Assembly (NCBI RefSeq): GCF_002900975.1
Contig: NZ_PJON01000001.1
Coordinates: 682,001 to 746,000, forward strand
Length of the DNA stretch: 64,000 nucleotides
Source: Tabrizicola aquatica
Lineage (GTDB): Bacteria > Pseudomonadota > Alphaproteobacteria > Rhodobacterales > Rhodobacteraceae
Direction: 5' to 3'
The notes beneath the pieces are model-generated. The model did no database searches, had not been told where the DNA came from, and was given only the letters and a program-made list of their open reading frames with translations. A program made the translations under genes and the position numbers. Shown here in pieces: positions 45,627 to 45,847 of this stretch; position 1 is the first letter of the stretch, and each line of letters opens with the position of its first letter.

Positions 45627-45698
45627 GCTCAGACCCCTATGCTGCACCTGCAAACGGATCATAGGGCCTGTCGGTTGCAAGATTCCAGCCGAAGCGCC

Positions 45699-45727
45699 AA
45701 AAAAAACGCCGGCACAAGGCCGGCGTT
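45699..45727 (-). terminator. Intrinsic terminator of the small RNA
   Basis: Perfect 9-bp arms AACGCCGGC / GCCGGCGTT (45727-45719 with 45713-45705, read on minus), 5-nt loop, then a U8 tract (complement of 45706-45699). Confidence 0.92.
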
Positions 45728-45774
45728 AAGTCTTTGAGGCAGGTTTCATACAGGCAAGAAACCTATCGAGCAGT
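45699..45774 (-). ncRNA. Candidate ~76-nt small RNA
   Basis: Minus strand. A promoter (45809-45781) ends ~7 nt before the expected start (~45774). The RNA would hold a stem AGGTTTC / GAAACCT (45764-45758 with 45747-45741, 10-nt loop), a single-stranded stretch GCCTCAAAGACTT, then a perfect Rho-independent terminator with eight U. No ORF fits. Length and layout match Hfq-type trans-acting sRNAs. Rhodobacteraceae have several ~75-80-nt stress sRNAs; I cannot assign which, if any. Confidence 0.7.
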
Positions 45775-45780
45775 GCCTTC

Positions 45781-45809
45781 TATATAGTCCCCTCTCCGCC
45801 GATGGCCAA
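45781..45809 (-). promoter_or_regulatory. Promoter of the small RNA
   Basis: Minus strand: -35 TTGGCC (45809-45804), 17-nt spacer, -10 TATATA (45786-45781). Read as CTTGG...CTATAT it also resembles the RpoH-type promoters of Rhodobacter, so stress control is possible. Confidence 0.6.
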
Positions 45810-45818
45810 GCTAAAAGT

Positions 45819-45847
45819 TTGAATATCCACGATCACCCGCATAGGGT
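45819..45847 (+). promoter_or_regulatory. Possible promoter of the solute-binding gene
   Basis: TTGAAT (45819-45824), 17-nt spacer, TAGGGT (45842-45847). Divergent from the small RNA promoter, overlapping no genes. The -10 is weak. Confidence 0.35.

Follow-up and report, generated by a model that had tools for sequence, protein, structure and literature searches.

The window analysed here, 64,000 nucleotides (nt) of Tabrizicola aquatica (contig NZ_PJON01000001.1, positions 682,001 to 746,000 of the forward strand), carries a gene for a small RNA (sRNA) on its minus strand. The RNA consists of a short 5′ tail, a hairpin with an exposed loop and a terminator (Table 1). About 76 nt long and present throughout the Rhodobacteraceae as part of their core, it is probably an independent RNA that acts in trans by base pairing. 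Its main conserved partner would be the long 5′ leader of mraZ and the division and cell wall (dcw) operon, together with UpsM, the RNA released from that leader. Two hallmarks of the trans-acting class were observed: the gene has a promoter and terminator of its own, independent of its neighbours, and its RNA has conserved complementarity to a partner.

Complementarity to the mraZ leader

In nearly all Rhodobacteraceae, the mraZ leader contains GCAGGTTTCATACAGGCA (site 1), the exact complement of the sRNA loop and 3′ arm, followed about 35 nt later by CGAGCAG (site 2), the complement of the sRNA 5′ tail. By direct count, 26 of 28 leaders from the family matched site 1 at 13–18 of 19 positions, and one further leader matched at 12 of 19 owing to a one-base deletion; the 28 leaders from other alphaproteobacterial families matched at 10–12 of 19, which is chance level, with none above. 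Exact copies of CGAGCAG occurred 31–42 nt downstream of site 1 in 24/28 family leaders and, at that spacing, in 0/28 leaders of the other families. When 30 more genera were added, chosen for having the lowest-scoring sRNA, most kept site 1, and in the rest it was shortened, shifted or rearranged. In the 55 genomes with both parts, other stretches of the locus served as controls for the complementarity score: the genome's own leader outscored every control in 52 of them (median 39, as compared to a median of 19.5 and a maximum of 31.5 for the controls). Site 1 stands out in the leader alignment as a conserved island within a variable stretch.

The genome of the window itself shows the same arrangement. 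Its leader, near G000:C1:1,495,600, carries TTCATACAGGCAG and GCGAGCAG, complementary to the sRNA over 13 and 8 nt, respectively, and the 13 pairs at site 1 are contiguous. In one genome (G162) a change of TATGAA to TAGGAA in the sRNA is accompanied by one of TTCATA to TCCTA in the leader, and the leader there pairs better with its own sRNA (−32.5 kcal/mol) than with an RNA of the family sequence (−29.7 kcal/mol). Pairing between sRNA and leader is well supported at the level of sequence. The preliminary description of this DNA, made from the letters alone, had claimed an independent sRNA; the gene, promoter and terminator stand, but the complementarity to the dcw leader, its most informative feature, was missed.

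Downstream of site 1, the mraZ leaders (L275/L276 and others) contain a highly conserved block, TCCGGCGCGC-GAGCGAGCAGACATCCCCCCAGGTG-GCGCGCGCAG, whose conservation exceeds what pairing with the sRNA alone requires.

Distribution and conservation

The sRNA was found in 297/297 Rhodobacteraceae genomes (one per genus drawn, 296 genera, at least 95% complete) and in 124/125 Paracoccus genomes. Among the hosts that bear a genus name are Ruegeria, Leisingera, Sulfitobacter, Roseovarius, Paracoccus, Jannaschia, Tabrizicola, Cereibacter and Planktomarina. When 101 genomes were searched by BLASTN, it was recovered from 29 of 31 genomes of the same genus, all 29 tested other genera of the family, and one further listed genus. 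The 40 genomes of other alphaproteobacterial families in that search yielded no convincing copy; a single match (G078/L059) was rejected as a homolog, covering the terminator only. Matches in plasmid and phage collections were confined to Paracoccus chromids.

Nearly every position of nt 2–41 is constant across 176 sequences, and this near-invariant part comprises the 5′ tail, loop and hairpin, exactly what pairing and the stem need. The terminator hairpin is stable in 185 of 186 distinct homologues but is built from 65 different stem arms. Because an invariant front is set against so many versions of the back, the pattern points to selection for a fixed sequence in the first and for a working hairpin in the second. 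Conservation of the stem and terminator among the Rhodobacteraceae, whose absence the preliminary description had named as one of two outcomes that would refute its sRNA, is what these alignments show, so that this refutation fails. In genome G256 (L336), about 31 extra bases separate the 5′ tail from the hairpin, and this insertion suggests that the two are separate modules. Genome G279 also has part of the sRNA core in duplicate: CTTGCCTGTATGAAAACTGCCTC, lacking a 5′ tail (L369 ~1428–1452; C10:92426–92449), which may be a decayed copy, a decoy or chance.

Architecture of the sRNA gene

Read directly, the minus strand of the window runs TCAAACTTTTAGC TTGGCC-N17-TATATA GAAGGC ACTGCTCGATAGGTTTCTTGCCTGTATGAAACCTGCCTCAAAGACTTAACGCCGGCCTTGTGCCGGCGTTTTTTTT; the letters, spacing and coordinates of the promoter had been given correctly. 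The predicted start is the A or C of CACTGCTCG, for an RNA of 72–76 nt. Taken as the 76 nt from 45774 to 45699, the RNA folds better than all 200 of its dinucleotide shuffles (z = −4.0). Both the sequence and the fold bear out the description of a 7-bp stem, a 9-bp GC stem and U8 within ~76 nt, with 2 of the 8 T's falling inside the terminator stem when that stem is counted as 9 bp. By analogy, the T8 run is likely an Hfq-binding 3′ tail. A terminator scan found this hairpin to be the sole terminator of the region. Terminator-like hairpins alone are common (0.8 per shuffled 1.4 kb), and it is therefore conservation that places the sRNA beyond chance. With a conserved promoter region, an intrinsic terminator and conservation far beyond the genus, the claim of an sRNA with its own promoter and terminator holds. 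So does the claim that no open reading frame fits: none is conserved, and a 7-codon ATG frame that does occur lacks a conserved stop. A small-peptide reading of the locus was ruled out on the same ground, the ATG frame not being conserved.

Table 1. Features of the sRNA gene and its promoter in the window
Feature	Position	Strand	Remarks
Conserved element TCAAACTTTTAG	45811-45822	(-)	Directly upstream of -35; 73-95% identity per position, 174 sequences
-35 element TTGGCC	45804-45809	(-)	Family consensus CTTGGAC
-10 element TATATA	45781-45786	(-)	Family consensus TATAA; 17-nt spacer to -35
sRNA gene	45699-45775	(-)	Start predicted at 45774 or 45775, ~76 nt; from promoter spacing, terminator, fold and conservation
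5′ tail CTGCTCG	45767-45773	(-)	Complementary to site 2 (CGAGCAG) of mraZ/dcw leader
Hairpin 1 AGGTTTC-TTGCCTGTAT-GAAACCT	45741-45764	(-)	7-bp stem, arms 45764-45758 and 45747-45741; hardly any sequence deviates
Loop and 3′ arm TTGCCTGTATGAAACCT	45741-45757	(-)	Complementary to site 1 (GCAGGTTTCATACAGGCA) of mraZ/dcw leader
Intrinsic terminator hairpin AACGCCGGC-CTTGT-GCCGGCGTT	45705-45727	(-)	9-bp stem; kept in homologues
T8 run of terminator	45699-45706	(-)	Direct sequence read

UpsM and the proposed mechanism

The partner RNA is best known from Rhodobacter sphaeroides. UpsM (RSs0682) is a 206-nt sRNA from the dcw leader, special to the Rhodobacteraceae, with a start 268 nt before mraZ (PMC5089854). 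It arises by early termination in that leader and is the most abundant Hfq-bound sRNA (PMC5089854, PMC8625941). RNase E cuts it upon rearrangement by another sRNA, StsR (PMC8307010, PMC8625941), and the product has its 5′ end at genome position 694,720 (PMC6238624). Our genome G120 is R. sphaeroides 2.4.1; it has SorY at 1,632,645 and SorX at 2,598,225, where the published places are 1,632,642 and 2,598,224 (PMC6238624). Its ortholog of the sRNA is a minus-strand gene at 1,443,993–1,444,072, where bdhA again follows downstream. Counted from the published start of UpsM, site 1 occupies nt 54–71 and site 2 nt 106–113; position 694,720 corresponds to nt 85, between the two. Joint folding of sRNA and UpsM retained a long intermolecular helix at site 1.

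We infer pairing inside the cell, assistance by Hfq and the sign of the effect. The proposed order of events is as follows: the exposed hairpin loop UUGCCUGUAU would first contact site 1 of the leader in a kissing interaction, from which the helix would extend into the 3′ arm of the hairpin. The 5′ tail CUGCUCG would then clamp site 2, about 35 nt further on, so that the intervening sequence would be looped out in single-stranded form; in R. sphaeroides this sequence contains the mapped RNase E cut. The most likely outcome is that binding would change how RNase E cuts the leader and how often transcription reads through it, adjusting the levels of UpsM and dcw mRNA. As to direction, promotion of cleavage or lowering of dcw is put forward tentatively, at somewhat less than an even chance; that UpsM acts as a decoy for the sRNA is a more doubtful outcome, and protection or other effects take up the rest.

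Several points count against a pairing RNA directed at the dcw leader, and they are gathered here. The stem of hairpin 1 is paired in 99.7% of alignment cells yet never varies, and the covariation test of this stem gave no evidence for that very reason; its support comes from energy and conservation. Covariation between RNA and leader is likewise thin, since the sRNA hardly varies, and in two deviant genera (G060 and G128) the family-consensus RNA would pair with the leader equally well or better. A few genera (G338, G148, G355 and G233) retain only partial or rearranged sites. Short-seed searches for other targets, which were not systematic, returned only scattered, chance-level short matches. 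Finally, cutting of UpsM has been credited to StsR, so the nearness of the cut to the two sites may be coincidence. A compensatory change in RNA and leader seen by eye in G060 was set aside, the energies not supporting it; a 10-bp match made by the 5′ tail of its sRNA is at a non-homologous place and could be chance.

The alternative that survives best turns the relationship around, with UpsM as the regulator: a sponge that holds the sRNA in exponential phase, the real mRNA targets of the sRNA being elsewhere. Both this alternative and control of the leader predict the same conserved sites, and identical sites would be conserved under a sponge as well; the abundance of UpsM, about 60% of Hfq-bound sRNA (PMC5089854), would suit the role. 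However, the whole complementarity lies within the dcw leader of every genus, the invariance of the sRNA is explained without any further conserved seed, and the non-systematic searches, with their isolated short matches, turned up no other targets. We regard a sponge as possible, though on the unlikely side.

Relation to StsR

A more improbable alternative is that the sRNA is the ortholog of StsR, the UpsM-binding, RpoHI/RpoHII-dependent sRNA of R. sphaeroides. The partner RNA is the same, the 72 nt reported for StsR (PMC8307010) is close to the 72–76 nt of the sRNA, and the two sRNA sites bracket the cut credited to StsR. The map, however, is at odds with this identification. StsR was formerly RSs0827 (PMC8307010), and in strain 2.4.1 RSs0680/RSs0682 lie at 692–695 kb and RSs1624 at 1,724.5 kb (PMC6238624). 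The RSs and IGR numbers run linearly along the 2.4.1 chromosome, which puts StsR (IGR 0827) near 853 kb and would give the sRNA, at 1,444.0 kb, a number of 1365–1375. SorY and SorX, which we take to be RSs1543 and RSs2461, both fit the same line. Identification with StsR, suggested by the UpsM pairing, was thus rejected on map position, calibrated by the SorY and SorX coordinates; as the distinction is drawn from position, a small residual risk attaches to it.

Chromosome 1 of 2.4.1 carries another terminator-ended, RNA-like element at 858.1 kb (~858,050–858,140, plus strand; L268). It is preceded by CCATGTTA and contains TTCACTGTCCC, which can pair with the UpsM 5′ end. It is a good candidate for the StsR gene, though its UpsM match is short and alone not significant. 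A search of 2.4.1 for ChrR, made to place rpoE, found none.

Other RNA families

The Infernal search of Rfam proposed for this then unannotated sRNA returned no family at the gathering threshold in the window. Matches below threshold to asX2, suhB, SorX, SorY and others were judged terminator-driven or distant. SorY (RF02651) scored 19.3 bits against a threshold of 111, and the true SorY of 2.4.1 is at 1,632,645. That the sRNA might represent, in the Rhodobacterales, one of the stress or storage sRNA families suhB/MmgR (alpha-r8) and SorX was considered very improbable. These covariance models did match on the right strand and in register (24.8 bits for suhB/MmgR and 22.4 for SorX), the order of hairpin, linker AnACUU and terminator is similar, and adjacency to bdhA would fit a role in polyhydroxybutyrate (PHB) metabolism. 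The scores nevertheless fall far below the gathering thresholds of 41 and 46.6 bits, the sRNA lacks a loop of the CCUCCC type, and SorX exists separately in R. sphaeroides 2.4.1.

Neighbouring genes and promoter

Both neighbours named in the preliminary description were confirmed: the gene downstream of the sRNA is bdhA, for 3-hydroxybutyrate dehydrogenase (TIGR01963, E 4.9e-109, above cut-off), and on the divergent side is a gene for a solute-binding protein of family 5 (PF00496, E 1.5e-61), which adjoins the sRNA in 159 of 170 loci. Of the 101 loci with enough flank, 72 have bdhA next to the sRNA and in the same direction, 8 have it more than 500 nt away and 21 have no bdhA in the flank; promoter, sRNA and terminator persisted in all 101, including the 29 with bdhA displaced or not seen. 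Because they persist in those 29, the sRNA is a gene independent of bdhA, in an old genomic place. The preliminary description had remarked on the nearness to bdhA and the transporter; for bdhA, the arrangement does not look functional.

The weakest alternative, that the sRNA is a leader acting in cis on bdhA as attenuator or riboswitch, would suit the window, where the terminator is co-directional with bdhA and ends about 70 nt before its start codon, and the 72 loci with adjacent bdhA; yet it was refuted as a general explanation by the 29 loci in which bdhA is not directly downstream, no anti-terminator partner is present, and the invariance of the loop is already explained by the dcw leader, leaving it a negligible chance.

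Between the sRNA terminator and the start of bdhA lies a short GCA-rich repeat, TTTGCAGGTGCAGCAT (45639–45654, minus strand), resembling a PhaR-type site (TGCA-n-TGCA). In 51 of 157 loci a similar pattern occurs no more than 180 nt from bdhA, a count for which no background rate was computed. Perhaps bdhA has its own promoter under PHB control.

In the sRNA promoter, TCAAACTTTTAG, CTTGGAC and TATAA are 70–99% conserved in most genera, and the spacer is not conserved. The TCAAACTTTTAG block, conserved as strongly as the promoter in most genera and missing from some divergent ones, is possibly an UP element or the site of an activator. A sigma-70 consensus scan of the window did not flag the sRNA promoter. 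With a start at the C of ACTG, the TTG lies at −36 to −34 and an A at −12, the positions demanded by RpoHI/RpoHII promoters (PMC3441632). RpoHI and RpoHII promoters of R. sphaeroides require the TTG of the −35 and TAT in the −10 element (Dufour 2012, PMC3441632). The sRNA promoter has both; TTGGAC-N16/17-TATAA equally fits a housekeeping promoter. The promoter is therefore compatible with RpoHI/RpoHII without being diagnostic, and stress control through RpoH would be an extrapolation from these elements.

Significance and comparison with known systems

The literature searched contained no report of an sRNA in the interval that separates the solute-binding gene from bdhA, nor of RSs numbers near RSs1370 (including RSs1368). 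Anonymous earlier detection in RNA-seq lists is likely, and as an R. sphaeroides sRNA possible; the RNA is not known to have been given a function. Base-pairing sRNAs are a known kind; this family and its relation to its partner appear new. We see about an even chance that UpsM has in this core RNA a second and universal partner, other than StsR and hitherto undescribed, which grips the dcw leader at two sites on either side of the RNase E cut and is the ancestral switch or antidote of leader-controlled division. The sRNA is unmarked in the public RNA library yet is as universal in its family as a housekeeping RNA, with an almost frozen sequence. Its complementarity points to a concrete partner, the dcw leader, and offers a reason for the long mraZ leader and UpsM throughout the Rhodobacteraceae, which are very abundant marine, soil and phototrophic bacteria. 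Should the pairing be confirmed, division in the family would be controlled by an RNA network with three or more members (UpsM, StsR and the present sRNA).

Five known systems invite comparison. UpsM is confined to the Rhodobacteraceae, the same range as the sRNA, but is a product of the 5′ untranslated region of mraZ, whereas the sRNA has an independent gene, which in 2.4.1 lies at a distance of 750 kb. StsR is also small, terminator-ended and independently transcribed, with UpsM and the 5′ leader of dcw as pairing partners; an RNase E site is reported to become exposed on pairing (PMC8307010, PMC8625941). It differs in location (near 853–858 kb, as compared to 1,444.0 kb for the sRNA), and its candidate at 858 kb differs in sequence from the sRNA, which contains ACTGCTCGATAGGTTTC, and is complementary to UpsM nt 1–32 rather than nt 54–71 and 106–113. 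The suhB/MmgR (RF00519) and SorX (RF02784) RNAs share the general layout and size but not the loop, linker sequences or genomic context. Intergenic 134 and Intergenic 60 of P. denitrificans are expressed RNAs of 80–84 nt conserved across the Rhodobacteraceae (Gaimster 2016, PMC5107571), one of which shares its context with an R. sphaeroides sRNA (PMC5107571); they resemble the sRNA in being intergenic, of similar size and conserved family-wide. Homologs of Intergenic 134 have been reported in Rhizobiales and Streptomyces, and of Intergenic 60 in Sphingomonadales (PMC5107571), counterparts that the sRNA lacks in the BLASTN search; none of the Paracoccus genomes examined reproduced the published coordinates of Intergenic 134, and the distinction, drawn from descriptions, is tentative. 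Lastly, SroC-GcvB and ChbBC-ChiX are sRNA-sRNA pairs. They resemble the present case in the extended complementarity of an sRNA to a transcript-derived RNA that can serve as a sponge, but the partner here is the early-terminated 5′ leader of an essential operon.
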